A stretch of DNA of 64,000 nucleotides, taken from positions 62,001 through 126,000 of the forward strand of contig CANNAC010000007.1 of NCBI GenBank assembly GCA_947502495.1, given 5' to 3'. Below, in pieces: positions 8,441-44,823 of the stretch. Source of the DNA: an uncultured Flavobacteriaceae bacterium (GTDB lineage Bacteria > Bacteroidota > Bacteroidia > Flavobacteriales > Flavobacteriaceae). How positions within the stretch are numbered: position 1 is the first letter of the stretch; the number at the start of each line of letters is the position of its first letter. Position numbers and translations under genes: made by a program. The notes beneath the pieces were generated by a model. The model saw only the letters and a list, made by a program, of their open reading frames with translations, was not told the DNA's origin and searched no databases.

Positions 8441-8474
8441 ACATTTAACCCAACCTCCCAAATGGGTTAAATGT
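8441..8474 (+). promoter_or_regulatory. 12-bp inverted repeat in the leader of the giant adhesin gene
   Basis: The arms 8441-8452 (ACATTTAACCCA) and 8463-8474 (TGGGTTAAATGT) are perfectly complementary with a 10-nt loop. The hairpin ends 14 bases before the chosen start codon at 8489 and has no T tract after it. It could be an operator, a weak pause/attenuator that tunes transcription from the sprD-like gene into the 13.8-kb gene, or an mRNA end protector. An ATG at 8471 lies inside the right arm, which argues against that codon as the start. Confidence 0.65.
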
Positions 8475-8488
8475 ATGAAACATATAGC

Positions 8489-26778: not shown

Positions 26779-26821
26779 TGATTTATGTCATTTTTATAGC
26801 TGTCATTTTCAACTATATTTG
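26779..26821 (+). promoter_or_regulatory. Crp/Fnr-type site plus -7 box for mlaEFD
   Basis: The palindrome TGATTTATGTCA at 26779-26790 fits TGA-N6-TCA. Exactly 35 bases after its first base comes TATATTTG (26814-26821), a consensus Bacteroidota -7 element. With +1 at about 26826 the site is centred near -41.5, the class II activator position, and the leader to ATG 26840 is 14 nt. Confidence 0.72.
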
Positions 26822-26839
26822 AAATATAAATACTTAATA

Positions 26840-27610
26840 ATGAGTGGTTCAAATGGTTTTAAGTCTTTTTTTATAGAAATTGGCGAGCTTACTTTATTTG
26901 CTAAGCGCTTTTTTAAAGAATTGTTTAGCAGGCCTTTTGAGGGGAAAGAATTACTAAGGCAATGTTATAATATTGGTAACCGTTCCATTTTATTAGTTGC
27001 AGTTACAGGCTTTATTATTGGTTTAGTAATAACCTTACAAACGAGGCCAACTTTAGAAGGTTTTGGCGCAGAATCTTGGATGCCATCTATGGTTAGTTTA
27101 TCTATTATTAGAGAAATAGGACCTGTAATTATAGCCCTAACATTTGCCGGTAGAATAGCTTCTGGTATAGGAGCAGAGTTAGGTTCTATGCGTGTAACAG
27201 AGCAAATTGATGCTATGGAAGTATCTGGAACAAATCCGTTTAAGTTTTTAGTCGTTACCAGAATTGTTGCAGCTACTCTTATGTTGCCACTTTTAGTGCT
27301 TCTAGGGGATGCCATTGCGCTTTCCGGATCTTACTTAATAGAAAATGTTAAAGGCGAAGTTTCTTTCGTGCTTTATTTTAATAAGGTGTTTAAGGTTTTA
27401 GAGTTTAGTGATCTAATTCCTGCTACTATAAAAACGTTTTTCTTCGGATTTGCAATTGCTCTTGTTGGTTGTTTTAAAGGATATCATTGTGAAAAAGGAA
27501 CGGTTGGAGTAGGAGCAGCAGCCAATTCAGCCGTAGTGTTTTCATCTATGCTGTTATTTGTTATCGATTTTGTAGCCGTTTTTGTAACCGATATATTTTT
27601 CGAACTATAA
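26840..27610 (+). CDS. mlaE: MlaE-family ABC transporter permease
   Basis: I use ATG 26840 (256 residues); a TTG at 26819 would add seven residues but lies in the -7 element. The protein is an MlaE/YrbE permease: GFIIGLVITLQTRPTLEGFG, the hallmark SIIREIGPVIIALTFAGRIA and SGIGAELGSMRVTEQIDAME (residues about 85-135), and C-terminal hydrophobic helices with GVGAAANSAVVFSSM. In the Mla pathway the permease dimer works with the MlaF ATPase and the MCE protein MlaD to move phospholipids between inner and outer membranes. The ATPase starts 4 bp downstream and the MCE gene follows, an intact EFD operon. No mlaB or mlaC homologue is next to it. Confidence 0.92.
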   Translation: MSGSNGFKSFFIEIGELTLFAKRFFKELFSRPFEGKELLRQCYNIGNRSILLVAVTGFIIGLVITLQTRPTLEGFGAESWMPSMVSLSIIREIGPVIIALTFAGRIASGIGAELGSMRVTEQIDAMEVSGTNPFKFLVVTRIVAATLMLPLLVLLGDAIALSGSYLIENVKGEVSFVLYFNKVFKVLEFSDLIPATIKTFFFGFAIALVGCFKGYHCEKGTVGVGAAANSAVVFSSMLLFVIDFVAVFVTDIFFEL

Positions 27611-27614
27611 TAGT

Positions 27615-28394
27615 ATGAGCAGAGAACAAAACATATCCAAAGCAATAGAAAACATAGATACGAAATCTGTAATACTAGAGATTAAAGATTTAAGAAAAAG
27701 CTTTGGAAGCAACCATGTTTTAAATGGTTTTAATTTAAAACTATATGAAGGAGAGAACCTCGTTATTATGGGGAAATCGGGATCGGGGAAATCGGTGATG
27801 ATTAAATGCTTAGTTGGTTTGTTACAAGCAGATTCAGGAAGCATTAAAATAATGGGGCAAGAAATAAATACTATAAATCAAAAAGACTTGAACATCTTGA
27901 GAACGGAGATCGGATTTCTTTTTCAAGGAAGCGCTTTATATGATTCGATGACCGTTAGAGAAAATTTAGAATTTCCATTACGAAGACATAAAACCAGGTT
28001 TAAGGATGCTACTAATATGGACGAATTAGTAACCGAAGCTTTAGAAAGTGTAGGATTATTGCATGCCATAGATTTAATGCCAGCAGAACTTTCTGGAGGA
28101 ATGAAAAGACGTATTGCATTAGCAAGAACCTTAATTTTAAAACCGAAGATTATTTTATATGACGAACCAACTAGTGGTTTAGATCCTATCACCTCAAAAG
28201 AAATTATAGAACTTATGCGAAGCATACAAAAAAAATATAAAACGTCTTCACTAATAATTACGCACGATGTAGATTGTGCAAGAGTAGTGTCTGAACGTAT
28301 TATTTTGCTAGTGGATGGTATTAACTATGTAGAAGGTACATATAGCGAATTATCCACTTCTACAGATGCGCAAGTAAAAGCATTCTTTAAATAA
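27615..28394 (+). CDS. mlaF: MlaF-family ABC transporter ATPase
   Basis: The 259-residue ATPase has Walker A GKSGSGKS (residues 53-60), Q-loop FLFQGSALYDSMTV, signature LSGGMKRR (about 156-163), Walker B ILYDEPTSGLD and the switch His in ITHD. The phrase FQGSALYDSMTVRENLEFPL is characteristic of MlaF-type ATPases rather than of general exporters. It begins four bases after mlaE and is followed 14 bases later by the MCE protein, so the three are co-expressed. It energises lipid transfer through the MlaE permease at the inner membrane. Confidence 0.93.
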   Translation: MSREQNISKAIENIDTKSVILEIKDLRKSFGSNHVLNGFNLKLYEGENLVIMGKSGSGKSVMIKCLVGLLQADSGSIKIMGQEINTINQKDLNILRTEIGFLFQGSALYDSMTVRENLEFPLRRHKTRFKDATNMDELVTEALESVGLLHAIDLMPAELSGGMKRRIALARTLILKPKIILYDEPTSGLDPITSKEIIELMRSIQKKYKTSSLIITHDVDCARVVSERIILLVDGINYVEGTYSELSTSTDAQVKAFFK

Positions 28395-28408
28395 TTTAAA
28401 TATAACAG

Positions 28409-29395
28409 ATGAAAAAGACGAATAACGAAAAATTTAGATTAGGCCTCTTTGTCATTCTTGGGACACTCCTTTTTATTGCTACGATATATTTTCTAGGCGA
28501 ACGTCAAAACTTATTTGCGAAAACCTTTACTGTAAATTCAAATTTCAATAATGTAAACGGATTAATGCAAGGTAATAACGTGCGTTATTCGGGAATTAAT
28601 GTTGGGACGGTAAAAACGATATTTATGCGTAACGATAGTACCATTCAAGTGACCATGTATATTGATGAAAAAATGATGCCGCACATTAAAAAAGATGCTA
28701 TTGCTACCATTGGTTCCGATGGGTTGGTTGGTAATATGATTGTAAATATTATTCCTGGCGAAGGTAGCGCAGCCATTATTTCATCTGGAGATACCATTGC
28801 ATCCTATTCTAAAATTGGAACAGGAGAAATGCTAAATACATTAAATACCACCAATGAAAATGCCGCTTTACTGACCTCGAAGTTATTAGATATAACCAAT
28901 GCTATAACCAGCGGAAAAGGAACTTTGGGGATGCTTATTAATGACACAATTACGTCCAACGAGTTGCAGCAAACCATTCATTATTTAAAGTTAACAAGCA
29001 TGGAAGCTAATAAAACCATGAAAGATATAAATACTTTAGTTAGTGCTGTAAATATAGAAAATAGTGTTGCAGGAGTGTTACTTAAGGATCCGGAAGAAGC
29101 GCAAAAAGTAAAAGACATGATTTCTAATTTGAATCAATCTAGTGAAGAAATAAAAACAGTGGTAGATAATTTAAAGGAAACCATTGCTAATTTTAAAGAA
29201 GGAAATGGTGTATTTAATTATATAACAGAAGATGAAGATGCTGTTAAAAGTTTACAAGAATCTCTCGAAAATATAAAGGAAGGTACAGACAAGTTTAACC
29301 AAAATATGGAAGCACTGAAGCATAATTTTCTAATTCGAGGTTACTTTAAAAAATTAGACCGTCAAGAGAAAAAAGAAGCAGAAAAAGAGGATTAA
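28409..29395 (+). CDS. mlaD: MlaD-like MCE-domain lipid-binding protein
   Basis: The 328-residue protein has one N-terminal membrane anchor (FRLGLFVILGTLLFIATIYF, residues 8-27) and then a single MCE domain (about 38-125: VNGLMQGNNVRYSGINVGTV, MMPHIKKDAIATIGSDGLVG, VNIIPGEG). A long helical tail (150-328) with coiled-coil character ends in a run of Lys/Glu. MlaD-type proteins form hexamers on the periplasmic face of MlaE and carry the lipid. The 328-residue length exceeds E. coli MlaD (183) and is usual for Bacteroidota MCE proteins. It follows mlaF and precedes an unknown gene by 11 bp. Confidence 0.9.
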   Translation: MKKTNNEKFRLGLFVILGTLLFIATIYFLGERQNLFAKTFTVNSNFNNVNGLMQGNNVRYSGINVGTVKTIFMRNDSTIQVTMYIDEKMMPHIKKDAIATIGSDGLVGNMIVNIIPGEGSAAIISSGDTIASYSKIGTGEMLNTLNTTNENAALLTSKLLDITNAITSGKGTLGMLINDTITSNELQQTIHYLKLTSMEANKTMKDINTLVSAVNIENSVAGVLLKDPEEAQKVKDMISNLNQSSEEIKTVVDNLKETIANFKEGNGVFNYITEDEDAVKSLQESLENIKEGTDKFNQNMEALKHNFLIRGYFKKLDRQEKKEAEKED

Positions 29396-29406
29396 AAATA
29401 TATGTT

Positions 29407-29895
29407 ATGAAAGTAGAACATTTAGAAGAACGTGTTATCGATTATAAAAATTCAATTGAAACCGTTGTGAAAAAAAAGACTTTATGGGAAACAAGCATAA
29501 AAAAACTACTTGTAACTACGCTAAGTTCTATTGTTAAACAATTTAATATTGGATGGAATGTTCAACAATTAAATTGGATAAATAATAATGAAGCAGTGAA
29601 CATTATTTTTGAGTCCTTTCCTCCAGAATTAATTATTAGTACTAATAAAATACCTACTTATCAATTTATTCCAGGAGCTGCTTTGGTTTTTTCTCAATCT
29701 TATAATGGAGATGTATTTGTTTTTATTTTATTTCCAATAATAGAAAATATACCAATTGAAAATAGCACGATAGATCTAGGTATTTTAAACCCTAAAGAAA
29801 TTAATGAAAAATTAATTGTTGAAAAAGTGGATGAGTTTTTAAAAGAAATGATAAAATGGGAAGTGCCATCCATTAAAAATAAGCTTGGCTATTAA
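29407..29895 (+). CDS. uncharacterised protein at the end of the mla operon
   Basis: The 162-residue protein has no signal peptide, membrane helix or recognised motif. The N-terminal 40 residues are basic and helical (VVKKKTLWETSIKKLLVTTL). The middle is beta-rich with an aromatic/Pro pattern (PTYQFIPGAALVFSQSYNGD then VFVFILFPII), and the last third is a charged helix ending EVPSIKNKLGY. It starts 11 bp after mlaD and precedes the separately promoted sigma-like gene, so it is probably the fourth gene of the mla unit. I do not recognise the family; an accessory role with the MCE system is only a contextual guess. Confidence 0.6.
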   Translation: MKVEHLEERVIDYKNSIETVVKKKTLWETSIKKLLVTTLSSIVKQFNIGWNVQQLNWINNNEAVNIIFESFPPELIISTNKIPTYQFIPGAALVFSQSYNGDVFVFILFPIIENIPIENSTIDLGILNPKEINEKLIVEKVDEFLKEMIKWEVPSIKNKLGY

Positions 29896-29909
29896 TTATA
29901 AAGAATAGA

Positions 29910-29952
29910 TGATTAATGTCATTTTTTTGGATCTTGATTTTTATTATTTTTA
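29910..29952 (+). promoter_or_regulatory. Crp/Fnr-type site plus -7 box for the sigma-like gene
   Basis: TGATTAATGTCA (29910-29921) is followed at +35 by TATTTTTA (29945-29952). The predicted +1 at 29957 gives a 13-nt leader to ATG 29970. The region is T-rich, so this -7 call alone is weaker than the others; the identical geometry supports it. Confidence 0.6.
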
Positions 29953-29969
29953 TTTCTAATCTTGAAATT

Positions 29970-30740
29970 ATGAAAACTGATATCCGTTATTATCAAAACA
30001 AACAAGAGTTTCGTCTATTTGTAAAAGAATCCTATTCTAGTTTAATTAAATTAAAAAACGAAGGAGATAAAGAAGCCTTTAATGCTTTAGTTTTAAAAAT
30101 ATTACCAAGCTTAAGGAACTATGTAAATAGAGGCTTAAATGTTTTTATTAGCAGTGGGAATTTCTCAAAAGGAAAATACAAAGGAGATGATATTATTGAT
30201 CAGCTTTTTATTGAAATCTACGATCATATAGAAGAGGTGAAACATGAAAAAGATTTCTATGCTTGGTTGTATTTAAAAGCAGATGAAATCATGGAAGATA
30301 TTCAAGTAGAAGAAGCGTTTAATGAATTCTTTTTTAAAAATATAGATACCTATTCTAAACCAGAATGGGATGCCATGGAAGAAAAATATACCAAAGATGC
30401 CGATGGCGATTTATTGTTAATTGAAAAATTAAACGATAGCTCTTATAATCATAATGATTATGAATTAAAACCTGTTTTTGTTGAAGATAATGAAGTCGCT
30501 TTTGTAGATAAAATAGATAAACAATTAGAGCAAAATGCAGTGAAAAATCATACTGCTTTTGTAGTTCGTAATCTGCCATTTGCAATGCGTCAAGTTTTTG
30601 AACTATTTACAAATGAAGGTTTAACTTTAGAAGAAATAGCAGTGGCAAGAAAATCTACAACAAACGAAGTGAAGCAGTTGTTTGAAGATGCAAAACGTGC
30701 ATTACAAGTGAGTCTGTTTAATCGGTATTTAAATAAATAA
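29970..30740 (+). CDS. sigma-70/ECF-like protein
   Basis: I start at ATG 29970 (256 residues, MKTDIRYYQNKQEF); the longer frame from 29916 begins inside the predicted operator and encodes only a hydrophobic artefact. Residues about 30-110 look like sigma region 2 (EGDKEAFNALVLKILPSLRN, then DDIIDQLFIEIYDHIEEV), and residues about 205-245 like region 4 helix-turn-helix (LPFAMRQVFELFTNEGLTLE, EIAVARKSTTNEVKQLFEDA). The linker between them is long and acidic (about 110-200), unlike a standard ECF factor of roughly 190 residues. No anti-sigma gene is next to it. It may be a divergent sigma factor or a related regulator. Its own Crp/Fnr-type promoter places it in the island's regulon. Confidence 0.65.
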   Translation: MKTDIRYYQNKQEFRLFVKESYSSLIKLKNEGDKEAFNALVLKILPSLRNYVNRGLNVFISSGNFSKGKYKGDDIIDQLFIEIYDHIEEVKHEKDFYAWLYLKADEIMEDIQVEEAFNEFFFKNIDTYSKPEWDAMEEKYTKDADGDLLLIEKLNDSSYNHNDYELKPVFVEDNEVAFVDKIDKQLEQNAVKNHTAFVVRNLPFAMRQVFELFTNEGLTLEEIAVARKSTTNEVKQLFEDAKRALQVSLFNRYLNK

Positions 30741-30750
30741 TATAGAATTA

Positions 30751-30797
30751 TACCCATAAAAAAAAGAGCTAATATGTAGCTCTTTTTTTTTATGGGT
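30751..30797. terminator. bidirectional intrinsic terminator
   Basis: A long hairpin with core stem GAGCTA/TAGCTC (30766-30771 with 30777-30782, 5-nt loop) is flanked by 8 A on the left and 9 T on the right and extended by TACCCAT/ATGGGTA arms. The A and T tracts make it work on both strands, between the convergent genes ending at 30740 and 30810. Confidence 0.9.
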
Positions 30798-30809
30798 AAA
30801 TATTAAGGT

Positions 30810-31274: not shown

Positions 31275-31339
31275 TTTTTAGTTGTATTTATTAATGGTTG
31301 GAAGCAAATAGTACAGTAATTGTTTGTTGATTATTAAAT

Positions 31340-31843
31340 CTATAAAAAATTTCCTTCGTCATCTACTTTTACTTTTATGCGTTTCTCGCCATTTATTAAT
31401 GTAAGTTTATACTTTTTGTTAGCGGTTTCACCAGCTACATATTTAACTAAATACACTTCATTAGTTATGGACCAGTTTGGAAACCTTTTTACAATGGATA
31501 GTAAAACAGATTTTGGTAAATCGATACGCTTATATTTTTCGGCAGTTCTTATTATTTTCCCTTTACTATCATATGTCGCAAGAATTTTACCTTCAGGAAT
31601 AATAAAATATACCTCATAATAATCATATTCATCCGCATAAATATCTAATGTTTTAATGTCAAAATTTGCTGCTTTTATTTGTAATTGATCTGCCTCAATG
31701 GGCATGTCTGAGGCATTTGTACTACTAAGATATTTGTAGTTGTTTACCAATACAACTTCATCTAATAACTCTATTTTTGGATCTTGAGCATATAAGGAAG
31801 TGGTTAAAGCAAAAACGAATAAGCCTATTATTAATTTTTTCAT
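31340..31843 (-). CDS. small exported PepSY-like protein
   Basis: I start at ATG 31843 (MKKLIIGLFVFALTTSLYAQ), a standard signal peptide; an upstream in-frame ATG at 31855 would put four residues in front. The mature part (about 147 residues) alternates strands and helices, with YEVYFIIPEGKILATYDSKG, KIIRTAEKYKRIDLPKSVLL, SIVKRFPNWSITNEVYLVKY and INGEKRIKVKVDDEGNF, a pattern like PepSY/BLIP-like periplasmic proteins common in Flavobacteria. No catalytic residues are evident. A Crp/Fnr-type promoter lies just upstream on the same strand, so it is a predicted member of the regulon and probably monocistronic. Exact role unknown. Confidence 0.72.
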   Translation of the reverse strand: MKKLIIGLFVFALTTSLYAQDPKIELLDEVVLVNNYKYLSSTNASDMPIEADQLQIKAANFDIKTLDIYADEYDYYEVYFIIPEGKILATYDSKGKIIRTAEKYKRIDLPKSVLLSIVKRFPNWSITNEVYLVKYVAGETANKKYKLTLINGEKRIKVKVDDEGNFL

Positions 31844-31872
31844 AATTATTAACATTTAAAATTTATATATAA

Positions 31873-31915
31873 TAAATGTATAGATATCCTATTAGGAAAG
31901 CTATGATAAATATCA
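31873..31915 (-). promoter_or_regulatory. Crp/Fnr-type site plus -7 box for the PepSY-like gene
   Basis: Read on the minus strand, TGATATTTATCA (31915-31904) is followed at +35 by TACATTTA (31880-31873). Predicted +1 at 31868 gives a 25-nt leader to ATG 31843. The same -7 octamer occurs at 34292 (minus) and 41217 (plus). Confidence 0.72.
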
Positions 31916-31932
31916 GTTTAGATAATCGTTTT

Positions 31933-32838
31933 TTACGTTTTATTTTTTATATCTACTTGTAAATCAGAAATTTTAATTAGTTCTATCGTTTCAGAAGCCA
32001 ATACAACGTTACCATTTGTAGCTTCAATTTCTTTTCTAATCAAATCATTTAATAGGTGTTTGGTGTATCGTCTTTTTTTATAATCGACAATGTATCTTAA
32101 ATTAAATGTGATCCAATTATCGGTTAATGTGGTTGCTAATGTTGGTTCTACCATAGCATCTTCTATGTAATATTTATTTACAACTTCCTGCCATTGGATT
32201 TTAGATGCTTTGGTGTATTCGGCAAGTGTGGTTGTTGCGGCTTCAATGATTATGGCTTTTGCTAACTCTACATCAGAGCCATAACGGATTGGTAAATTAA
32301 ACGCATCCCAAATAAATGGAAAGTCTTTAGAATAGTTATATACAGCGCCTTTAAATACAAAAGCATTACTTAATTTTACTATTCGACCTGTATAATTATC
32401 GCTTTCCACCCATTGCCCAATTTCCATCATGGTGGTGTAAATACTATCTACATCAATAACGTCTCCTTTTATTCCGTTAATTTCAATGCGATCTCCTGGT
32501 TCGTACACTTTAACTACAAAAATATATACAGAACCAGCAATACTTAAAATAAGCTCTTGAAGTGTAAATGCTAGTCCGGCAGATAGCAATCCTAAGGTTA
32601 CCGTAAAGTCTTTTATGCTTCCAGTAAAATATAAAACAGTAATAAAAGCGAGTATAAAATAGCCTAATAACTCGATGCCTTTTTGCGACTTATATCTTAC
32701 CGAAGTATTGGCTATATTTCGTTTTAAAAAGCGTCTAATAATTTGTATGCATAGCAATACAAATAGCACTATTGCCATGTATTTTAAAACACTTTGTAAT
32801 AGCGGGTAATCTTTAAGCCATTGTTGTATTGTTTCCAT
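31933..32838 (-). CDS. small-conductance mechanosensitive channel (MscS family)
   Basis: The 301-residue protein has three N-terminal hydrophobic helices (YMAIVLFVLLCIQIIRRFL about 18-36; LLGYFILAFITVLYF; the pore helix LGLLSAGLAFTLQELILSIA about 82-101) followed by the MscS beta domain (VYEPGDRIEINGIKGDVIDV, with NAFVFKGAVYNYS). These are hallmark MscS elements. It opens under membrane tension to release solutes. It is the last gene of a four-gene unit (70-aa protein, cbpA, cbpM, mscS) with 18 bp after cbpM, so it is predicted to be controlled by the promoter at 34285-34327. Confidence 0.92.
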   Translation of the reverse strand: METIQQWLKDYPLLQSVLKYMAIVLFVLLCIQIIRRFLKRNIANTSVRYKSQKGIELLGYFILAFITVLYFTGSIKDFTVTLGLLSAGLAFTLQELILSIAGSVYIFVVKVYEPGDRIEINGIKGDVIDVDSIYTTMMEIGQWVESDNYTGRIVKLSNAFVFKGAVYNYSKDFPFIWDAFNLPIRYGSDVELAKAIIIEAATTTLAEYTKASKIQWQEVVNKYYIEDAMVEPTLATTLTDNWITFNLRYIVDYKKRRYTKHLLNDLIRKEIEATNGNVVLASETIELIKISDLQVDIKNKT

Positions 32839-32856
32839 TATTAGTATAAGATTGAT

Positions 32857-33153
32857 CTATAAATCTTCGTATAATCTTAGTTTATTATTTAGGGATGTTA
32901 TTTCGTTTTGCATGTTTTCTAAACGTTGTAATAAATGATAAATAGCATCTAAACCTTCAAGATTAATATGAAGATCAAAGTGCAAACGCATCAGTTTTTC
33001 AACCTCGTTAATTTGTGTCGTCTTAATAAAATGATCATTGTTTGAAACCACAATTTCAATCAGTTCATATTCTTTTAAATCCTTTATAAACGTTGCCGGC
33101 ACGTTGTAATGTTTACAAAAAGTAGTGATAGAAATTAAATCTGTTACTTCCAT
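32857..33153 (-). CDS. cbpM: CbpM-like modulator of the CbpA co-chaperone
   Basis: The 98-residue protein fits CbpM: an N-terminal MerR-like helical part (LISITTFCKHYNVPATFIKD, residues 6-25), an EYELIEIVVSNNDHFIKTTQ strand pair, then a long amphipathic helix with LHINLEGLDAIYHLLQRLEN and a C-terminal coiled coil (EITSLNNKLRLYEDL). CbpM binds the J domain of CbpA and blocks its work with DnaK. It starts two bases after the cbpA stop codon, the usual cbpA-cbpM arrangement, which makes the assignment firm. Confidence 0.9.
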   Translation of the reverse strand: MEVTDLISITTFCKHYNVPATFIKDLKEYELIEIVVSNNDHFIKTTQINEVEKLMRLHFDLHINLEGLDAIYHLLQRLENMQNEITSLNNKLRLYEDL

Positions 33154-33155
33154 AA

Positions 33156-34049
33156 TTATCTTAGTTTTTGAAGTTCTGTAAATAATTCTTTCTCTTTATC
33201 TGTCAGTTTTGTTGGTGTTTTTATTTGATAGGTTATGTATAAGTCACCAAACTGTCCTTCTTTTTTGTACTTCGGAAACCCTTTTCCTTTTAACTTTACT
33301 TTCGTTCCGTTTTGGGTTTCTGGTTTAATGGTGAGTTTAACTTTTCCGTTAAAGGTGTCAACCATCAAATCCCCTCCTAACATTGCTGTGTATAAATCTA
33401 AATCTACAGTAGCATAAAGGTTGTCTTTATCTCTTTTGAATTTGGAATGATTTTGAATAGAAAACTGAATATACAAGTCGCCATTTGGTGCGCCATTAAC
33501 CCCTTTGCCACCATGCCCTTTTATCTTAATGGTTTGTCCGTTTTCTACTCCTGCAGGAATCGTAATTCGTATGTTTTTATTGTTAACCGTTAGCGTGCGT
33601 TTGTGGTCTTCATAAACATCCTTTAGTTCTAGCTGAAGCTCTGCGTTAAAATCTTGACCTCTAAATCGAGATCTTCTCTGACTTCTTCCAGATGCTTGAC
33701 CGCCAAACATGTTACCAAAAATATCTTCAAAATCATTTGCACTATAACCTCCCGAACTTCCTGCTTGTCCTTGATACGCTCTTTGCTGCTGCTGTTGCCG
33801 TTTTGCTTGTTCGTAGGCTTCCGAGTTTTGCCAATGCTCTCCATACTGATCGTACTTTTTACGATTTTCAGAATTGCTCAATACTTCATTAGCCTCATTA
33901 ATTTCTTTAAACTTTTTTTCCGCTTCTTTATCGTTTGGGTTTAAATCGGGATGATACTTACGCGCCAGTTTTCTGTAGGCTTTTTTGATGTCTTTTTCAG
34001 AAGCTGTTTTAGAAATCCCTAAAGCTTTATAATAATCTATAAATGCCAT
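33156..34049 (-). CDS. cbpA: CbpA-type J-domain co-chaperone
   Basis: The 297-residue protein starts with a J domain (residues 5-70) carrying the HPD motif in [14 protein letters not shown], followed by a Gln/Gly-rich linker (about 80-125) and the two C-terminal substrate-binding beta domains ([50 protein letters not shown]). The zinc-finger cysteines of DnaJ are absent, which separates CbpA (DjlA/B-type class II) from DnaJ. It stimulates DnaK ATPase under stress. Stop of the upstream 70-residue gene abuts its ATG, so translation is coupled; cbpM and mscS follow. Confidence 0.93.
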
Positions 34050-34262
34050 TTATTTCGTTTTATGATTTTCAATATGATGTTTTAACGTTTCCTTTAAAGT
34101 GTTTAAGTAATCTTTCAAAACGGTAGGGTTTATGTCTGGATGTTCCATCGAAGGTATTGTACTTGGATCCTCTAATAGAAATGCATATAACTCTGGATAG
34201 TTAGTCTCTATATTATAGGTTAACTGTGTAATTTGCGTTAATAACTCTTGTTCCGTTTTCAT
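34050..34262 (-). CDS. small protein leading the cbpA operon
   Basis: The 70-residue, soluble, probably helical protein (MKTEQELLTQITQLTYNIET ... LKDYLNTLKETLKHHIENH) is acidic in the first half and has a proline-rich turn in the middle (EDPSTIPSMEHPDINPT). Its stop codon directly abuts the cbpA start and a Crp/Fnr-type promoter with a predicted 18-nt leader lies upstream, which supports that it is a real, expressed gene. I do not recognise a family; a chaperone-linked role is only suggested by position. Confidence 0.68.
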   Translation of the reverse strand: MKTEQELLTQITQLTYNIETNYPELYAFLLEDPSTIPSMEHPDINPTVLKDYLNTLKETLKHHIENHKTK

Positions 34263-34284
34263 ACCTTAACCTTTTTAATAACTA

Positions 34285-34327
34285 TAAATGTATAGTTAAA
34301 GTTACAAGAATAATATGATTAAAATCA
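34285..34327 (-). promoter_or_regulatory. Crp/Fnr-type site plus -7 box for the cbpA-cbpM-mscS operon
   Basis: On the minus strand TGATTTTAATCA (34327-34316) is followed at +35 by TACATTTA (34292-34285). Predicted +1 is 34280, 18 nt before ATG 34262. Confidence 0.72.
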
Positions 34328-34345
34328 GTTTTAGGTTTTTAATAG

Positions 34346-35020
34346 TTAGCTAATTATCCTGCCATCTTCCATCGTGATAATTCTATCGGTACGATTGGCG
34401 AAATCTTCATCATGTGTTACAATTAGTAAGGATAAGTTTTCTTCTACGCTCAACTTTTTAAAAATATTAAATACATTATCGGCATTATGGCTATCCAGGT
34501 TTCCTGTTGGTTCGTCTCCCATAATTATAGACGGATTATTTATAAGAGCTCTAGCAATTGCAACACGTTGTTTTTCACCACCAGATACTTGTGACGCTTT
34601 TTTATGTGCTAAATGTTCGATGTTTAAAATACGTAGTTTTTCAAGTGCATCTTTTTCAATTTGTTTGACACTTTTTTCGCCTAGCTTTTTAGCAGGAAGC
34701 ATCACGTTTTCTAAAACAGTAAATTCGGAAAGCAAATAATGAAACTGAAACACAAAGCCAATATGTTTATTTCTAACATAAGATAATTTGTTTCTGCTGT
34801 CTCCGGTAAGTAGGTCGTTATTTAAATATAAATCGCCTTCGTAGTCCGAATCCATGGTAGACAGAATGTATAATAAGGTAGATTTTCCGCAACCCGATTT
34901 TCCCATAATGGAAACAAATTCGCCTTCATTGATTTTAAAATTAATGTCTTTTAATACATGAAAAAGCACTGGCTTTTTAAAGTATTTATTGATGTTCTTG
35001 GCTTCTAGTACTGTTTTCAT
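34346..35020 (-). CDS. LolD/MacB-type ABC transporter ATPase
   Basis: I start at ATG 35020 (224 residues); the open frame runs further upstream only through the neighbouring permease. It has Walker A GKSGCGKS (residues 40-47), Q-loop FVFQFHYLLSEFTVLENVML, signature VSGGEKQRVAIARAL, Walker B IIMGDEPTGNLD and switch His in VTHD. The LENVMLP and GNLDS phrases mark the LolD/MacB/FtsE group. Two bases separate its start from the permease stop, and an adaptor precedes the permease, so it forms a tripartite export or lipoprotein-handling system (adaptor, FtsX-like permease, ATPase). The substrate is unknown. Confidence 0.9.
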   Translation of the reverse strand: MKTVLEAKNINKYFKKPVLFHVLKDINFKINEGEFVSIMGKSGCGKSTLLYILSTMDSDYEGDLYLNNDLLTGDSRNKLSYVRNKHIGFVFQFHYLLSEFTVLENVMLPAKKLGEKSVKQIEKDALEKLRILNIEHLAHKKASQVSGGEKQRVAIARALINNPSIIMGDEPTGNLDSHNADNVFNIFKKLSVEENLSLLIVTHDEDFANRTDRIITMEDGRIIS

Positions 35021-35022
35021 AA

Positions 35023-36285
35023 TTATTGCCCTCTTATTATTTTTACAGGATCTATTTTCTTCGCTTTTTGAGATGGCAAATAGCCTGCGAAAAAGGTGGA
35101 AATCATTGCGAATACAATTCCTATAACATAAAACCAACCATTAAAATTTATAGGATAGGTTTCTACGGTTGGCAATGCTTCCGTTTTAAACGGAATTGTG
35201 CTAATAATATTGGTGAAAATGAATCCGATTAATAATCCTAAAACACCTCCAACAATCCCAATAATCATGGCTTGACTCATGAAAATATACTGTACATCTT
35301 TTCCAGAAAAACCAATAGCTTTTAGAATAGCAATGTCATTCATTTTTTCGTAAATAAGCATGTTTAAAATGTTGTAAATACCAAAACCTGCAACGATTAA
35401 TAAGGTAACAGAAACAGCGTAAGTAATCAGGTTTCTAATAGTTGTTCCTGTTTCAAACTGTGCATTTGCCGTGTTTATATCTATGGCAGTTAAATTAAAT
35501 TGTGCTTCTATTTTTTTAGATAATGGCAATGCTTTATCTATATCAAAAAGTTTCACATTAATATCTGTAATATAATTTTCAGTTTCGCCTAAAATACGCT
35601 GTACGGTTTTCAGGTTTACAAAACTTTGAATGGCATCCAAATCTGCAACGCCACTTTGGTAAATGCCAACAATTCGCAATGGAAAAACATCCCCATTTAT
35701 AGTGCTTATTTGTACCCTTTCTCCAACGGTTAACGACATTTTTTTTGCAATTCCAGAACCTAATAAAATACCATTGTCTGTGTTTTTAAGTTTCTCTGGA
35801 GAACCTTCAATAATATAATCTCTAAAGTTGAATAATCTTGCTTCTTCCACAGGTTGAATGCCAGTAATGTTACCAGCGATTTCAATAGAGCCAGAGATGT
35901 AAAATATTTGTGTTTTAATTTGCGGAATGGCACCTTTGACTTCCTCTTTTTTATTTAAAAAATGAATAATTGGTAGGGCATTGTGTATCTTTTTTTGACT
36001 TAATTTTGGTTTAATAGAATGCACCACATTAAAGCTGTTTTTAAAAGCATCATATGCTTCTATAGGTTGCTCTTTTGAAGGTTCGATTTCATTATAGACA
36101 TGAATATGTGGTGTCTGATTTAAAATTAAATCGTCTAACATGGCATTTAAACCCGTCATAAAACTAACCAACGTAATGTAAGCGCCAATACCAAAAGTAA
36201 CACCTAAAGCTGCAATTGCAGTTTGTTTGAATTTAGTAAGCAAGTGCGTTTTTGCAATGTTCAGTATGATGGTCCAGTTTACCAT
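35023..36285 (-). CDS. FtsX/MacB-type ABC transporter permease
   Basis: The 420-residue protein has the architecture of LolC/E and MacB permeases: an N-terminal TM helix (AALGVTFGIGAYITLVSFMT, residues about 26-45), a periplasmic MacB_PCD domain (about 50-280; SGIAKKMSLTVGERVQISTI, FPLRIVGIYQSGVADLDAIQ), and three C-terminal TM helices of the FtsX fold (SVTLLIVAGFGIYNILNMLI, IGIVGGVLGLLIGFIFTNII, GWFYVIGIVFAMISTFFAGY). A cytoplasmic IAILKAIGFSGKDVQYIF loop couples to the ATPase. Its start overlaps the adaptor stop by one base. With neighbours it forms a mechanotransmission-type export complex. Confidence 0.9.
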   Translation of the reverse strand: MVNWTIILNIAKTHLLTKFKQTAIAALGVTFGIGAYITLVSFMTGLNAMLDDLILNQTPHIHVYNEIEPSKEQPIEAYDAFKNSFNVVHSIKPKLSQKKIHNALPIIHFLNKKEEVKGAIPQIKTQIFYISGSIEIAGNITGIQPVEEARLFNFRDYIIEGSPEKLKNTDNGILLGSGIAKKMSLTVGERVQISTINGDVFPLRIVGIYQSGVADLDAIQSFVNLKTVQRILGETENYITDINVKLFDIDKALPLSKKIEAQFNLTAIDINTANAQFETGTTIRNLITYAVSVTLLIVAGFGIYNILNMLIYEKMNDIAILKAIGFSGKDVQYIFMSQAMIIGIVGGVLGLLIGFIFTNIISTIPFKTEALPTVETYPINFNGWFYVIGIVFAMISTFFAGYLPSQKAKKIDPVKIIRGQ

Positions 36286-37364
36286 TATTCGGGTTTATAG
36301 ATGTAGATGTCTTTGGTAATTCCGCTAGTGATTTCTACAAAATCCATGTTTTCTAAACCTGTGGTAATAGATACCAGGCCGTCTTCTGTTTTTACTTGAT
36401 TGTTGTTTATAAGGTAACTTCTTGGAATCGTTAAAACCTTTTCTTTTTTAGATATTATAATATTTGCTTCACCCGAAAGTCCTGGATATAATACCTCTGG
36501 AGGATTTACAAAAACAGCTTCCACTTTAAAGGTTTGGTTACGTTCGTCTTTTTTTGGATATATTTTAGAAACCTTTCCTTTTAATATTTTACCACTATAA
36601 GCATCTAGCGTTATTAAAACATCTTGGTTTTTTGAGATTTTTACAATGTCTACTTCATCAACTAACATATCCATAATAAATGTAGAAGCACTACCAATAG
36701 AAGCTACAGGTTCCATGTTATTAACCAATTCTCCAGATTCTTTATAGAGCGCATAAACTTTACCATGTATAGCACTTTTTACGGTAAAATCTTTTGTGCT
36801 AATAAGTGAGGTTTGGTAATTGTTTTGCGCTTGTTTTACACTGGTATTTAACTGATTTTTTGTTTGGTTGTATTTGTTTTTAAGTAGCGTTAAATTGTTT
36901 TGCGATAGTTGGTAGTTTAACTGTTTTGCATCAAATTCGGCTTTAGAACCTATGCTTTGTTTCCATAGATTTTGTTGTCGGAAGAAGTTAATCGAATCGT
37001 TTTTATATTTTAAAATAGCGGCTTCCATTTCATTTTTAATCCCCGATAAAATGGCAGCACTTCCATTGTAATTTTCTTTTGCTAGATCTAAAGATAGTTT
37101 TGCGTTTTGCGAATTTAATATTGGTGAGTTGTTTATTATTTGTGAGATGGCTTCATTTTTTTTAATGATATCTCCTTCTTCCACAATATTCTTTTCTAGA
37201 ATACCGGAGACAATCGCATAAGCTTGGTATAAACTATCCGGTTGTACAGTGACAGAAGTATATACCGACTCGGTTAAATCTTGTTCTGTAGGAAGTGTTT
37301 TGTCTGTTTTGTTTTGACAGGTCCAGAGCAATAAAGTGGCTATAAATAGATAAAGGTTTTTCAT
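36285..37364 (-). CDS. HlyD/MacA-type periplasmic adaptor, probable lipoprotein
   Basis: The 359-residue protein starts MKNLYLFIATLLLWTCQNKT; the cysteine at 16 after a hydrophobic stretch suggests a lipoprotein, although the residues before it (LWT) are a loose lipobox. A half-motif VSGILEKNIVEEGDIIKKNE begins the lipoyl-like domain, a long hairpin of coiled coil follows (about 85-200), then SAIHGKVYALYKESGELVNN (second lipoyl half) and beta-barrel parts (VLITLDAYSGKILKGKVSKI; YPGLSGEANIIISKKEKVLT). It overlaps both neighbours (4 bp with the TerB-like gene, 1 bp with the permease), showing translational coupling in a four-gene unit. Confidence 0.88.
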   Translation of the reverse strand: MKNLYLFIATLLLWTCQNKTDKTLPTEQDLTESVYTSVTVQPDSLYQAYAIVSGILEKNIVEEGDIIKKNEAISQIINNSPILNSQNAKLSLDLAKENYNGSAAILSGIKNEMEAAILKYKNDSINFFRQQNLWKQSIGSKAEFDAKQLNYQLSQNNLTLLKNKYNQTKNQLNTSVKQAQNNYQTSLISTKDFTVKSAIHGKVYALYKESGELVNNMEPVASIGSASTFIMDMLVDEVDIVKISKNQDVLITLDAYSGKILKGKVSKIYPKKDERNQTFKVEAVFVNPPEVLYPGLSGEANIIISKKEKVLTIPRSYLINNNQVKTEDGLVSITTGLENMDFVEITSGITKDIYIYKPE

Positions 37365-37771
37365 GATTTCTTTAATTCAATATCTAGTCGAGCAAGAAGT
37401 ATAAGTTCCGATTTATTCTTACCAGCAAAACTACTTGCAATGGCATTTGCAGTCTTTATTATCAATTGTTTAATAGGTTTTGTGAACAAATGATTTTGTG
37501 CATTTTTATAACTTATAAAATCGGAGTAGCATTTTTCTGCATCTAAATTGTTTTCCCGATGTAGCATATCGAAGATAAATTCCATTTGGTAAGCAGCATC
37601 AGAACCAAATGCATCCTCTAAAGGATCTATTTCTAGCCATTCTGACTTTATGATTTCTTTTAAGGTTTCGATCTCTAAAGGTGCAACATGTTTATCGGTA
37701 GCAGCAATTGCATAAAATAGTTTACCTAAGTTTTGATAGAAATTTTGAGTTAATTTTTTTTTGTTTTTCAT
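37361..37771 (-). CDS. TerB-like helical protein heading the export operon
   Basis: The 136-residue, all-helical protein has a TerB-like beginning (FYQNLGKLFYAIAATDKHVA, residues 11-30, then PLEIETLKEIIKSEW), where the acidic/His residues resemble the metal-site region of TerB-type folds. The rest is less similar (YQMEFIFDMLHRENNLDAEK). Such domains are found in stress-linked cytoplasmic proteins. Its stop overlaps the adaptor start by four bases, so it is the first gene of the adaptor/permease/ATPase unit. A Crp/Fnr-type promoter lies 16 nt upstream (predicted leader). Function uncertain. Confidence 0.65.
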   Translation of the reverse strand: MKNKKKLTQNFYQNLGKLFYAIAATDKHVAPLEIETLKEIIKSEWLEIDPLEDAFGSDAAYQMEFIFDMLHRENNLDAEKCYSDFISYKNAQNHLFTKPIKQLIIKTANAIASSFAGKNKSELILLARLDIELKKS

Positions 37772-37791
37772 GCTACAAATATTTGCTTGTA

Positions 37792-37834
37792 TAAATCTAA
37801 TTACTTGTTAGCTATTAAATTATGATATTAATCA
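37792..37834 (-). promoter_or_regulatory. shared Crp/Fnr-type site between divergent export operon and sensor/regulator genes
   Basis: On the minus strand TGATTAATATCA (37834-37823) is followed at +35 by TAGATTTA (37799-37792), predicted +1 at 37787, 16-nt leader to ATG 37771. On the plus strand the same palindrome lies upstream of the kinase gene, but the best -7 box there (TAGTTTTG at 37870-37877) is at +47, so control of that side would use another geometry (possible autoregulation or repression). Confidence 0.68.
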
Positions 37835-37912
37835 GTTATTAGAATTAAATATATGTGGTTTTGCTCGTATAGTTTTGTATTTTTAAAGCAGTATTAAAAC
37901 TTTGCATTATAT

Positions 37913-39154: not shown

Positions 39155-40209
39155 TGAAGAAGATTTTATTAATTGAAGATGATGTTGTTTTAAGAGAAAA
39201 CACCGCCGAACTTTTAGAACTTTCCAACTATAATGTGGTTACAGCAGCAAATGGTAAATTAGGTGTAGAAGCTGCAATTAAAGAGCTTCCAAACATTATC
39301 ATTTGTGATATAATGATGCCAGAATTGGATGGTTACGGGGTTTTAGAACTGTTATCTAAAAATGAAAGTACTCAATATATTCCATTTATATTTTTATCCG
39401 CCAAAACAGAAAGAAAAGATGTTAGAAAAGGAATGGATCTTGGTGCAGATGATTACATCACTAAGCCTTTTCAAGAAGAAGAACTTACTAGTGCTATAGA
39501 AAGTAGAATTGCTAGAGCTTCCATTTTAAAAGATATTAGAGATAAGCGAAATAGCCAAGATAATACGGAAGAGGAAGATGAAATACGAACATTAAATGAT
39601 CTTAAAAACTATTTTGACGATAACGGAAAACCTTTTACTTTTAAAAAAGGAGAGATAATATATACCGAAGGACAGAACTCTAATTATATATTTTTAGTAA
39701 CTAAAGGTGTTGTGAAATGTTACAAGTTTGATGAGCAAGGAAAAGAACTAATAACTGCTTTGCACAAAGAAGACGATTTATTTGGCTACACTTCCTTTAT
39801 TCAAAACATTCCATATCAGGAATCTGCAGGAGTTATTAAAGACGCAGAATTAGCTGGTATTTCTAAAGAGCAACTTGCCGATGTTTTAAACAGTAATCAT
39901 AAAATAACTTTAGAACTGATTCAATTACTCACGGACGATTTAAAAGGAGTAAAAAACCAATTGTTAGAAATGGCTTACAGTTCGGTAAGTAAAAAAACGG
40001 CAAGTACTATTTTAAAATTTGCCGAAAAATTAAACAGCAAACCAAACCAACCTATAAAAATTTCGCGTAGTGATTTATCAAGCGTTGCTGGTATTGCAAC
40101 AGAAACTTTAATTAGAACGATGTCTAGTTTTAAAAAACAAGGTTTAATCGAGATTGAAGGTAGAAATGTTACCATTGTTAACCTGGAGAAACTCAAGGAA
40201 ATCGTTTAA
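39154..40209 (+). CDS. response regulator fused to Crp/Fnr-family DNA-binding protein
   Basis: The 351-residue protein has a receiver domain (1-120) with acidic pair D9/D10, phospho-acceptor D52 (CDIMMPELDG), S82 and K104; then a linker (121-155), a cyclic-nucleotide-binding-type beta-roll (about 157-245; FKKGEIIYTEGQNSNYIF, VTKGVVKCYKF), a dimerisation helix and a Crp-type winged helix (about 300-345). The recognition helix ATETLIRTMSSFKKQGLI keeps Glu317 and Arg321, the positions that read TGA half-sites in FNR and CRP. It lacks the N-terminal FNR cysteines, so no [4Fe-4S] sensor; the signal probably comes by phosphorylation from the kinase. It is the best candidate for the activator of the TGA-N6-TCA promoters around it. 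Confidence 0.92.
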   Translation: MKKILLIEDDVVLRENTAELLELSNYNVVTAANGKLGVEAAIKELPNIIICDIMMPELDGYGVLELLSKNESTQYIPFIFLSAKTERKDVRKGMDLGADDYITKPFQEEELTSAIESRIARASILKDIRDKRNSQDNTEEEDEIRTLNDLKNYFDDNGKPFTFKKGEIIYTEGQNSNYIFLVTKGVVKCYKFDEQGKELITALHKEDDLFGYTSFIQNIPYQESAGVIKDAELAGISKEQLADVLNSNHKITLELIQLLTDDLKGVKNQLLEMAYSSVSKKTASTILKFAEKLNSKPNQPIKISRSDLSSVAGIATETLIRTMSSFKKQGLIEIEGRNVTIVNLEKLKEIV

Positions 40210-40230
40210 TTGCTTAAAATGGTGTCAATA

Positions 40231-40273
40231 TGATATTCGTCATATTTTAAAAAGAGCGTTAAATTTAACTTTG
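40231..40273 (+). promoter_or_regulatory. Crp/Fnr-type site plus -7 box for the first universal stress gene
   Basis: TGATATTCGTCA (40231-40242) is followed at +35 by TAACTTTG (40266-40273), a full TAnnTTTG element. Predicted +1 is 40278 and the leader to ATG 40293 is 15 nt. Confidence 0.76.
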
Positions 40274-40292
40274 TTCTTCAAGTTGAATTACA

Positions 40293-41138
40293 ATGAACAA
40301 TATATTATTACCAACGGATTTTTCTGATAACTCATGGAATGCCATTACATATGCATTACGTTTTTATGAGCATGCGGTATGTAACTTTTATTTACTTCAT
40401 GTAAATGTATTAACCGATGTTGTGGTTAATGATTCTTCTTATAGTACTAGTCCAGAAACTATTCAAGAAGTATATAATAAAGCATCGAAGAAGAAGTTGG
40501 TAGCGTTGTTGAAAAAAGTGTCAGAGCAAATACCACAGAATATCAATCATAAATTTTATACCATTTCAGACAATAATTTTTTTATAGAATCTATTAGAGA
40601 ACAGGTTCTAGAAAAAAAGATTGATGTTGTTGTAATGGGAACTAAAGGTGCTTCCGGATTAAAAAAATATATTACGGGAAGTAATACTGGTGATGTAATA
40701 ACCAAAGTGAAGTGTACCACTTTAGTCGTGCCCGAAAACGCAAAATATAACAAAATTGAAGAAGTGGCATTTCCTACAGATTATTCCATGAATTACAATC
40801 TGCAAACCTTGTTGCCGCTTTCACAGATTTTAGACGCTAATCCTTCCAGCTTAAGAATATTACATATTAGCAATGAAGAGGAAAAACTAAATGTTAGTCA
40901 GCAACAAAACAAAGAGCTATTAGCCGATTATTTTGCTAATAGCAAATATAGTTTTCATAATCTCACCAATAAAAAAGTAGAAAATGCCATACAGTGTTTT
41001 ATTGAGTCTCGAAACATTGGTTTAATAGCGATGGTAGCAAAAAACCTTAATTATTTTCAGCAAATACTATTTCATAATAAGGTAGAAAATATTAGTTATC
41101 ATACTGATATTCCGTTTTTAGTATTGCATGAAATATAA
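40293..41138 (+). CDS. universal stress protein, two UspA domains (copy 1)
   Basis: The 281-residue protein contains two Usp folds. The first (1-145) starts LPTDFSDNSWNAITYAL and ends with the nucleotide-binding phrase MGTKGASGLKKYITGSNTGD followed by TTLVVP, which fits the G-x2-G-x9-G-S/T motif of ATP-binding Usps. The second (about 150-281; VAFPTDYSMNYNLQ) lacks that motif. Its own Crp/Fnr-type promoter precedes it and a 264-bp gap with a candidate small RNA separates it from copy 2. Usps of this kind help cells survive starvation or oxygen limitation; the precise activity is unknown. Confidence 0.9.
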   Translation: MNNILLPTDFSDNSWNAITYALRFYEHAVCNFYLLHVNVLTDVVVNDSSYSTSPETIQEVYNKASKKKLVALLKKVSEQIPQNINHKFYTISDNNFFIESIREQVLEKKIDVVVMGTKGASGLKKYITGSNTGDVITKVKCTTLVVPENAKYNKIEEVAFPTDYSMNYNLQTLLPLSQILDANPSSLRILHISNEEEKLNVSQQQNKELLADYFANSKYSFHNLTNKKVENAIQCFIESRNIGLIAMVAKNLNYFQQILFHNKVENISYHTDIPFLVLHEI

Positions 41139-41181
41139 GTGTTAGAATATGGAAGATTTATTGTAATAAAAAAGACAAACA

Positions 41182-41224
41182 TGACACAGGTCATTGTTTA
41201 GTCCTTTTATTATAGATACATTTA
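41182..41224 (+). promoter_or_regulatory. Crp/Fnr-type site plus -7 box with no protein gene directly downstream
   Basis: TGACACAGGTCA (41182-41193) is followed at +35 by TACATTTA (41217-41224). Predicted +1 is 41229. The first downstream landmark is a terminator hairpin at 41286-41315, not an ORF. Confidence 0.65.
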
Positions 41225-41228
41225 TAAT

Positions 41229-41315
41229 GTAATTTAAGGGGTGTATGTTAAACATATAAATTAAATTACTTGCTATTAATCCATGAAAAATCCAGATGTA
41301 AATCTGGCTTTTTTT
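41229..41315 (+). ncRNA. candidate Crp/Fnr-controlled small RNA (about 85 nt)
   Basis: Between a promoter with the island's standard geometry (+1 predicted at 41229) and an intrinsic terminator (T run ending at 41315) lie about 85 bases without a plausible protein gene: the ATG codons at 41225, 41242 and 41283 open frames of at most 13 codons, the last running through the terminator. An independent promoter for copy 2 of the stress genes follows at 41338, so this transcript is not simply its leader. An A/T-rich single-stranded body with a 3' hairpin and U tail is a typical bacterial sRNA layout. No known family was recognised. Confidence 0.5.
41286..41315 (+). terminator. intrinsic terminator of the candidate small RNA
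   Basis: A 6-bp GC-containing stem CCAGAT/ATCTGG (41292-41297 with 41302-41307, loop GTAA) is flanked by five A on the left and seven T on the right (41309-41315), which lengthen the stem and give the U tail. It lies before the operator at 41338. Confidence 0.78.
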
Positions 41316-41337
41316 ATATCCTGATTATTTGCTTTAC

Positions 41338-41380
41338 TGATATTTGTCATAGTTTTTTATCCCATACGTTGTTATATTTC
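41338..41380 (+). promoter_or_regulatory. Crp/Fnr-type site plus -7 box for the usp2-usp3-usp4 operon
   Basis: TGATATTTGTCA (41338-41349) is followed at +35 by TATATTTC (41373-41380). Predicted +1 is 41385, giving an 18-nt leader to ATG 41403. This operator differs from the one at 31904-31915 by a single base when both are read in gene direction. Confidence 0.74.
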
Positions 41381-42248: not shown

Positions 42249-42265
42249 TAATTAAAATAAATATC

Positions 42266-43105: not shown

Positions 43106-43117
43106 TAAATTTTATAA

Positions 43118-43951: not shown

Positions 43952-43968
43952 TTTAAAATTTTAATACA

Positions 43969-44811: not shown

Positions 44812-44823
44812 AATATAAAAGCC

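Follow-up and report, generated by a model that had tools for sequence, protein, structure and literature searches.

A predicted class II Crp/Fnr-type regulon with a constant operator-to-box spacing around a PAS kinase/REC-Crp gene pair in Flavobacteriaceae

Which regulator, answering to which signal, would control a group of genes whose promoters all carry a Crp-like palindrome at one invariable distance from the same promoter box? The question is raised by a 64-kb stretch of DNA (33% GC; hereafter the window; contig CANNAC010000007.1, positions 62,001 to 126,000, assembly GCA_947502495.1) from the 4.07-Mb genome, in 60 contigs, of an uncultured Flavobacteriaceae bacterium. A first-pass annotation, made from the letters alone, had described in it an island with eight TGA-N6-TCA palindromes, each followed exactly 35 bases on by a TAnnTTT element. 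The same island holds adjoining genes for a PAS-domain histidine kinase and for a response regulator that fuses a receiver (REC) domain to a Crp-type output, here called REC-Crp. We distinguish the broad operator form, TGA-N6-TCA, from the strict form, TGAYN4RTCA, and count offsets from the first base of the site to the first base of the box.

All eight palindromes were recovered where they had been reported, each with its box at exactly 35 bases (Table 1). The window contains 15 broad-form palindromes, close to the ~16 that had been expected, and the words alone indeed mean little, as had been cautioned. Reading them on both strands gives 30 site-strands, of which 8 have TAnnTTT at offset 35, while any other offset from 12 to 119 collects at most 2; the eight matches all lie inside 26779-41349. 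With a box density of 0.0048 per strand-position, ~0.14 matches would be expected at offset 35, and the binomial P(≥8) is 1.4e-12 for a preset offset, or ~1e-10 once some 100 possible offsets are taken into account. Resampling 1,020 bases of island intergenic DNA under a Markov-1 model yielded a mean of 0.005 boxed sites and a maximum of 1, against the 8 observed, so that the spacing lies far beyond chance. Nine window palindromes have the strict form and eight of them are boxed; of the seven palindromes without the geometry, six do not fit TGAYN4RTCA. With the transcription start site (TSS) placed 12 bases downstream of the first box base, the seven protein genes have leaders of 13-18 nucleotides (nt), short as first predicted but in a narrower range than the 13-25 nt then given; for mlaE and the sigma-like gene, the ATG codons at 26840 and 29970 were used in place of the upstream TTG/ATG starts of the open reading frame (ORF) list. 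The eight-site observation is thus confirmed, and is stronger than the sequence alone had shown.

Genome-wide, the 35-base layout exceeds its controls. The broad form with a box at 35 occurs 44 times versus 16 for the reversed pattern, and the strict form 37 times at offset 35, versus 0 at 36 and 2 for the reversed pattern. In twenty control stretches of 20 kb, offset 35 was found in 0/42 strict and 1/264 broad site-strands. The strict matches are mostly clustered (33/37), at C1:195-222k (5), C1:314k (a divergent pair), C1:915-976k (15), C5:50-63k (3) and the island itself (8), where C1, C5 and C7 designate contigs. Six genomic places match the Crp helix-turn-helix (HTH) family, five of them above the cut-off, and one match each lies in or within ~6 kb of the clusters C1:195-222k, C1:915-976k, C5 and C7. 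A second REC-Crp, which shares 42% identity with that of the window, is encoded at C1:958k, and its island (C1:908-982k; L034-L037) shares the geometry. This island is larger, with 15 offset-35 sites richer in C/G (TGACCTAGGTCA type) and a 1089-amino-acid (aa) multi-PAS/GAF kinase, and the regulator gene is surrounded by genes for universal stress proteins (Usp) and by FtsH, BON, LigD-type, PPDK-type and PCMT/erythromycin-esterase-like genes. Two single palindromes of the genome, C1:314254-314265 and C1:915604-915615, are followed by a -7 box at 35 in both directions, and each may be a divergent class II promoter pair served by a single operator.

Does the geometry extend to other genomes? A search of 196 genomes of the order (E ≤ 1e-45, ten candidates scored per genome) found REC-Crp in 21, the window's own included. 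Within 20 kb of REC-Crp in nine relatives belonging to clade 1 of the regulator tree described below, 41/150 strict site-strands have the box at offset 35, the other offsets between 14 and 59 having a mean of 0.73. For the other REC-Crp genes, in ten relatives, the count is 30/206, with a mean of 1.40 at the remaining offsets. An independent named set comprised at least 80 REC-Crp loci, split by identity and title into two groups which the tree later showed to be clade 1 (54 loci) and the rest (26 loci). Among the clade-1 records, L178 bears just the title Bacteroidetes, and the rest includes L205, titled Flavobacteriaceae with none at 35, and L209, titled Chryseobacterium. The best named matches of the window REC-Crp, among the matches listed, are from Winogradskyella, Flaviramulus and Algibacter. 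In the 54 clade-1 loci, 227/748 site-strands are boxed at 35, with at least one in every locus, against 0 at offset 34, 5 at 36 and a mean of 3.85 over all offsets other than 35; palindromes with N5 or N7 spacers in the same loci give no peak at 35. Counted per palindrome, 220/374 are boxed, seven of these on both strands, where a single operator would serve divergent promoters. Boxed sites are also intergenic: ORFs of at least 90 aa contain 94/308 unboxed site-strands at a depth of more than 60 bases, but not one of the 227 boxed ones. Under an identical start-picking rule, leader quartiles are 15/19/23 nt for boxed and 26/124/2631 nt for unboxed site-strands. In the 41 full-length clade-1 loci, site density is highest at the REC-Crp gene.

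The position of these sites relative to transcription can be deduced from the box. In Flavobacterium psychrophilum, the sigma-A box TAnnTTTG lies at -12 to -5, according to a published TSS map (PMC9723704). Since the box starts 29.5 bp past the site centre, the sites would be centred at -41.5 on this box position. E. coli CRP and FNR act from this position at class II promoters, and the offset of 35 together with the published box position bears out the earlier assignment to that class. The upstream core element would presumably stand at -33, as TTTG with a 19-base spacer. The 235 boxed site-strands of the clade-1 loci and the window have there T in 94%, T in 50%, T in 53% and T in 67%, with G as the last base in 10%. 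The upstream core element is thus weak or replaced, a feature expected where a promoter depends on an activator. At its last position the box has A in 56% and G in 42%, with C and T almost absent. The operator itself is asymmetric towards the promoter, in that T directly follows TCA in 94% but A precedes TGA in just 37%. A class II Crp/Fnr-type regulon is strongly supported by the sequence data, because independent genomes, compared with strong controls, show the fixed offset again. The geometry is not confined to the island, as it recurs at the second REC-Crp and at a stand-alone Fnr-type regulator.

The 351-aa REC-Crp has a Pfam cNMP_binding match of 62.8 bits (cut-off 27.5), an HTH_Crp match of 51.9 bits (cut-off 27) and a REC domain. 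With this Crp-type output it is not a FixJ protein in the sense of REC plus a LuxR/GerE output, and the 50 Foldseek rows shown for its predicted fold are Crp-family proteins; since the predicted TM-score (pTM) of that fold is 0.54, its domain arrangement was not used. Receiver residues D52 and K104 are invariant in 23/23 REC-Crp sequences, as are E317 and R321 of the recognition helix, which we take to be equivalent to E181/R185 of Crp, the pair reading TGA. At the position that we equated by eye with R82 of E. coli Crp, presumably the arginine of the cAMP pocket, REC-Crp has Glu in 18/23 and Asp in 5/23 sequences. The window protein contains two Cys in total, and hence no N-terminal Cys cluster of the FNR [4Fe-4S] type. 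An adjoining kinase gene together with the receiver Asp and Lys is what would be expected of a two-component pair, and a similar kinase gene adjoins REC-Crp in 75/80 named loci; the five exceptions are four loci without a similar kinase and one whose kinase lies just beyond the distance limit. Searched alone, the PAS domain of the window kinase matches 13 PDB sequences at 1e-6, of which 12 are named FixL, DosP or haem PAS and one yddU, which we take to be DosP. His64 of the kinase aligns in these PDB alignments with the haem-ligand His of FixL and DosP, and it is kept in 67/72 PAS hits (47/51 clade-1, 20/21 other), where the hits come from 72/75 kinases and only the best one was taken from each, so that one PAS is judged in multi-PAS kinases. 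Haem binding by the kinase PAS is therefore likely on these alignments, and a low-oxygen two-component system probable.

Outside clade 1 the operator takes another form. In the 26 remaining loci, offset 57 collects 23 matches, and offset 35 14/220. We considered the peak at 57 as a class I position and rejected it, as it mostly reflects a second palindrome 22 bp upstream of a site at 35, although some offset-57 rows have no recognisable second site. Among 307 strict site-strands (the 26 loci plus ten stretches from four genomes of family f5 and one of family f7), 77 have a second site (at least 5/6 letters) at +22, whereas spacings of 16 to 29 other than 22 have 1-8 each; clade 1 is at background for +22 (10/748). 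A tree of 102 REC-Crp proteins places this difference. Clade 1 (64/64 rows) and a second Flavobacteriaceae clade (5/5), which contains the second REC-Crp of the window genome, have boxed single sites and no tandem. A third group of 33 rows, whose support (94/74) is not firm, divides into 15 with tandem sites, 4 with single sites only and 14 with neither. Mapped on the tree, the operator-form label requires 5 changes versus 14.1 when shuffled. Two rows of family f1 (L064 and L067) fall in the third group and have tandem sites, so the operator form follows the regulator clade and not the host family. We found 28 tandem promoters (second site at least 4/6, box TAnnTTT), at loci among L183-L210 and L091-L101, none of them inside an ORF. 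The 20 targets that were scanned include four ccoNO, one ccoI-like, one FixS/CcoS, four Usp and four Hsp20, besides one cation ATPase, one hemerythrin-type, one DUF2267 and three without a family. Leaders are loose (quartiles 20/34/152 nt), partly because genes below 60 aa were not called: a CcoS-like ORF of 55 to 65 aa precedes three of the four ccoNO, starting 15, 21 and 17 nt past the predicted TSS, and none does at the fourth (L199). A 22-bp step corresponds to two helix turns and, if the tandem form holds, would imply cooperative contacts between dimers.

Target genes of the single-site form are recurrent. A downstream ORF lies within 300 bases of 222/235 boxed site-strands, and the single-linkage cluster holding the window Usp genes accounts for 110 of these 222 ORFs, in 50 loci. 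Further clusters correspond to a 136-aa gene (26), the S30AE hibernation factor (10), FixS/CcoS (6) and MlaE (6), and a thioredoxin-like protein, recognised by its WCGPCK motif, to 7. A Usp relative is present in 52/54 clade-1 loci versus 9/26 others. Relatives of the window sigma-like, PepSY-like and 70-aa genes occur in 1, 0 and 2 of the 54 loci, so these members look local.

Taken together, these data lead us to a reading to which we give a probability of about 0.72: the island would be a self-contained two-component regulon, in which the PAS kinase and REC-Crp drive low-oxygen survival genes in class II mode. The cytoplasmic kinase, most likely a FixL-type haem-PAS oxygen sensor, would phosphorylate REC-Crp at D52; phosphorylation would replace cAMP or an Fe-S cluster in allowing the Crp-type dimer to bind TGAYN4RTCA; and the dimer at -41.5, with 29.5 bp between its centre and the first base of the sigma-A -7 box, would compensate for the poor -33 element. 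The predicted targets are universal stress proteins, the DnaJ-type CbpA and Mla lipid transport, with Hsp20, a ribosome hibernation factor and cbb3-oxidase genes in relatives. The sequence itself shows the geometry, its conservation, the intergenic position, the leader lengths, the gene content and the domain architecture; we infer the identity of the binding protein, its phosphorylation, oxygen as the signal and activation as the direction of control.

Several observations weigh against this reading. Only 3/80 strict site-strands near REC-Crp have the box at offset 35 in the four genomes of f5, a different family, which makes the group outside clade 1 uneven, and 154/374 strict palindromes of the clade-1 loci have a TAnnTTT at 35 on neither strand. 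Eight genomes that were scored without REC-Crp still show an excess, though a smaller one, with 94 at 35 versus 33 at 36. The sensor regions of neighbouring kinases differ in length, and position 84, which we equate with the distal arginine of FixL that contacts O2, is R in the window and in 40/72 hits (35/51 clade-1, 5/21 other). Lastly, the window genome encodes a stand-alone Fnr-type regulator (243 aa, C1:224.8 kb) in a region, C1:187-227k, with cbb3 and nosZ genes, and sites of the same consensus and geometry surround it, so that Fnr might drive the eight sites or share them.

The variability of position 84 bears on the signal. The kinase may sense something other than oxygen, such as redox poise, NO or a ligand, the haem-PAS resemblance then reflecting sequence ancestry only. 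Extra PAS domains in the two longer kinases scanned and the absence of His64 from 5/72 hits would fit this, and the PDB matches are weighted towards the well-studied FixL and DosP. Against these stand the conservation of His64 in nearly all hits and the cbb3 oxidase and assembly genes among the predicted targets, and we regard a non-oxygen signal as somewhat unlikely.

The Fnr-type regulator bears on the binding protein. If it were the main activator at the eight sites, REC-Crp would be minor or modulatory and the island an ordinary Fnr regulon. The Fnr-type gene has as neighbours a radical-SAM gene, nosZ, a Usp gene, ccoNO and a ccoI-like gene, and the five sites of its island, identical in consensus and offset, stand before the radical-SAM gene, a nosZ-containing run, Usp, a PLP-decarboxylase and a 62-aa ORF/ccoNO unit; the layout that persists in genomes scored without REC-Crp agrees with this too. 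However, offset-35 matches are commoner where REC-Crp exists (353 at 35 versus 31 at 36 in 14 genomes) and densest at its gene, the operator form tracks the REC-Crp clade, and the family-f1 islands of other REC-Crp genes use more C and G at operator positions 3, 4 and 7. Gene neighbourhood and phylogeny thus point to REC-Crp rather than Fnr as the protein binding the eight sites, and we consider an Fnr-driven island distinctly unlikely. A chance or compositional artefact of AT-rich intergenic DNA, which the unremarkable number of palindromes might suggest, was rejected on the resampling, the neighbouring offsets, the N5/N7 palindromes, the reversed patterns and the control stretches, and is exceedingly improbable.

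Table 1. Features of the island, in window coordinates; sites and boxes on the minus strand are given as read on that strand.
Feature	Coordinates	Strand	Remarks
Operator TGATTTATGTCA	26779..26790	+	-7 box TATATTTG 26814-26821; 14-nt leader to mlaE ATG 26840
mlaE-mlaF-mlaD and 162-aa gene	26840..29895	+	Pfam MlaE, ABC_tran, MlaD
Operator TGATTAATGTCA	29910..29921	+	Box TATTTTTA 29945-29952; 13-nt leader to ATG 29970
256-aa gene, "sigma-like" at first pass	29970..30740	+	No Pfam family at E 0.001
Operator TGATATTTATCA	31904..31915	-	Box TACATTTA 31880-31873; 13-nt leader to ATG 31855
171-aa gene, "PepSY-like" at first pass	31340..31855	-	No Pfam family at E 0.001
Operator TGATTTTAATCA	34316..34327	-	Box TACATTTA 34292-34285; 18-nt leader to ATG 34262
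70-aa ORF, first of cbpA-cbpM-mscS unit	34050-34262	-	Unlisted at first pass; directly before cbpA
cbpA/DnaJ	33156-34049	-	Pfam DnaJ, DnaJ_C
cbpM/MerR_2	32857-33153	-	Pfam MerR_2
mscS-like gene	31933-32838	-	Pfam MS_channel_2nd; whole cbp unit 31933..34262
Operator TGATTAATATCA	37823..37834	-	Box TAGATTTA 37799-37792; 16-nt leader to ATG 37771
Export unit: 136-aa gene, HlyD-type, MacB/FtsX permease, ABC ATPase	34346..37771	-	
PAS-HisKA-HATPase kinase, 413 aa	37913..39154	+	PAS matches FixL/DosP
REC-cNMP_binding-HTH_Crp response regulator, 351 aa	39154..40209	+	
Operator TGATATTCGTCA	40231..40242	+	Box TAACTTTG 40266-40273; 15-nt leader to ATG 40293
Universal stress protein gene 1	40293..41138	+	Pfam Usp
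Operator TGACACAGGTCA	41182..41193	+	Box TACATTTA 41217-41224; precedes candidate small RNA
Candidate small RNA, 79-87 nt, between two Usp genes	41229..41315	+	Terminator-like hairpin and T run
Operator TGATATTTGTCA	41338..41349	+	Box TATATTTC 41373-41380; 18-nt leader to ATG 41403
Probable operon: three Usp genes, ATP-cone/Mrr-like protein, beta-CASP metallo-hydrolase	41403..46197	+	

Individual members of the island call for comment. The unit behind the site at 34327 contains cbpA, cbpM and mscS as first described, except that the 70-aa ORF heads it. The 136-aa gene of the export unit sits behind the same operator-box layout in the window and in 25 named loci, and its product has no PDB match at E 0.1 and no Pfam family. 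The candidate small RNA has a fold z of -3.96; no match longer than 15 bases was found in 74 sequences (the 54 loci and 20 stretches of relatives), and we therefore rejected it as a conserved part of the circuit. A similar short terminator-ended transcript without sequence match is present in L139 at 12365, with a doubtful second case in L144, and Rfam gave two sub-threshold matches elsewhere in the island and none at the candidate. Autoregulation of the kinase gene from the site at 37823 was likewise rejected, the plus strand having no box at 35. The two last genes of the Usp operon (43969-46197) have relatives in 18/54 (ATP-cone/Mrr-like) and 16/54 (beta-CASP metallo-hydrolase) clade-1 loci. 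Elsewhere in the window, one ORF spans 8471-22321 and encodes 4616 aa, perhaps a giant secreted surface protein; a PorP/SprF gene (type IX secretion) comes after it.

A broader proposal, whose odds we see as evenly balanced, is that Bacteroidota possess a condensed FixL-FixJ-FixK circuit: a haem-PAS kinase would act on a REC-Crp fusion that activates a co-located low-oxygen dormancy regulon from -41.5, through an operator that is single in two Flavobacteriaceae clades and elsewhere often a 22-bp tandem, the cooperativity of which might be mediated by the receiver domains. To our knowledge, oxygen control is poorly mapped in the Bacteroidota, a major phylum of seas, soils and guts. A literature search covering titles and the beginnings of abstracts, with most subscription journals outside it, found no paper about a REC-Crp regulon, none about Crp sites at a fixed distance from the Bacteroidota box, and no description of the condensed circuit or of the tandem operator. 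The rule TGAYN4RTCAT-N22-TAnnTTT would find candidate activator-dependent promoters with low background, name a kinase/regulator pair for many of them and predict start sites to the base, and single versus tandem operators offer a natural comparison within one regulator family.

How does this arrangement compare with known systems? The class II promoters of E. coli CRP and FNR similarly have TGA/TCA half-sites centred 29.5 bp before the -10/-7 element and a poor upstream core element; here, however, the box is the Bacteroidota TAnnTTTR and not TATAAT, the offset shows no drift (227 at 35 over the 54 loci, against 0 at 34 and 5 at 36), and the T following the site in 94% has no matching A before it. 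Stand-alone FNR, FixK and DNR share the TGAY...RTCA sites, the E..R pair of the recognition helix and the class II position, whereas REC-Crp carries a receiver domain in addition and has just two Cys. The mycobacterial DosRST system resembles the island in the idea of a haem-type sensor kinase and in co-located targets of the Usp, Hsp20 and ribosome-hibernation types, but combines a GAF haem sensor with the NarL-type DosR where the island has a PAS sensor and a Crp output, and no homology is claimed. The rhizobial FixL-FixJ-FixK cascade has in common with the proposed circuit a FixL-like PAS kinase, a receiver domain, a Crp/Fnr output, and cbb3 oxidase and stress targets; unlike in that cascade, receiver and Crp output are here fused, sparing one transcription step, the output is not of the LuxR/GerE type of FixJ, and much of the predicted regulon adjoins its regulator. 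The class II geometry in itself is thus ordinary textbook matter, common to stand-alone Fnr; out of the ordinary are that it stays constant in many genomes, that the regulon lies together with its regulator, that a kinase is paired with REC-Crp, and that a tandem form exists.

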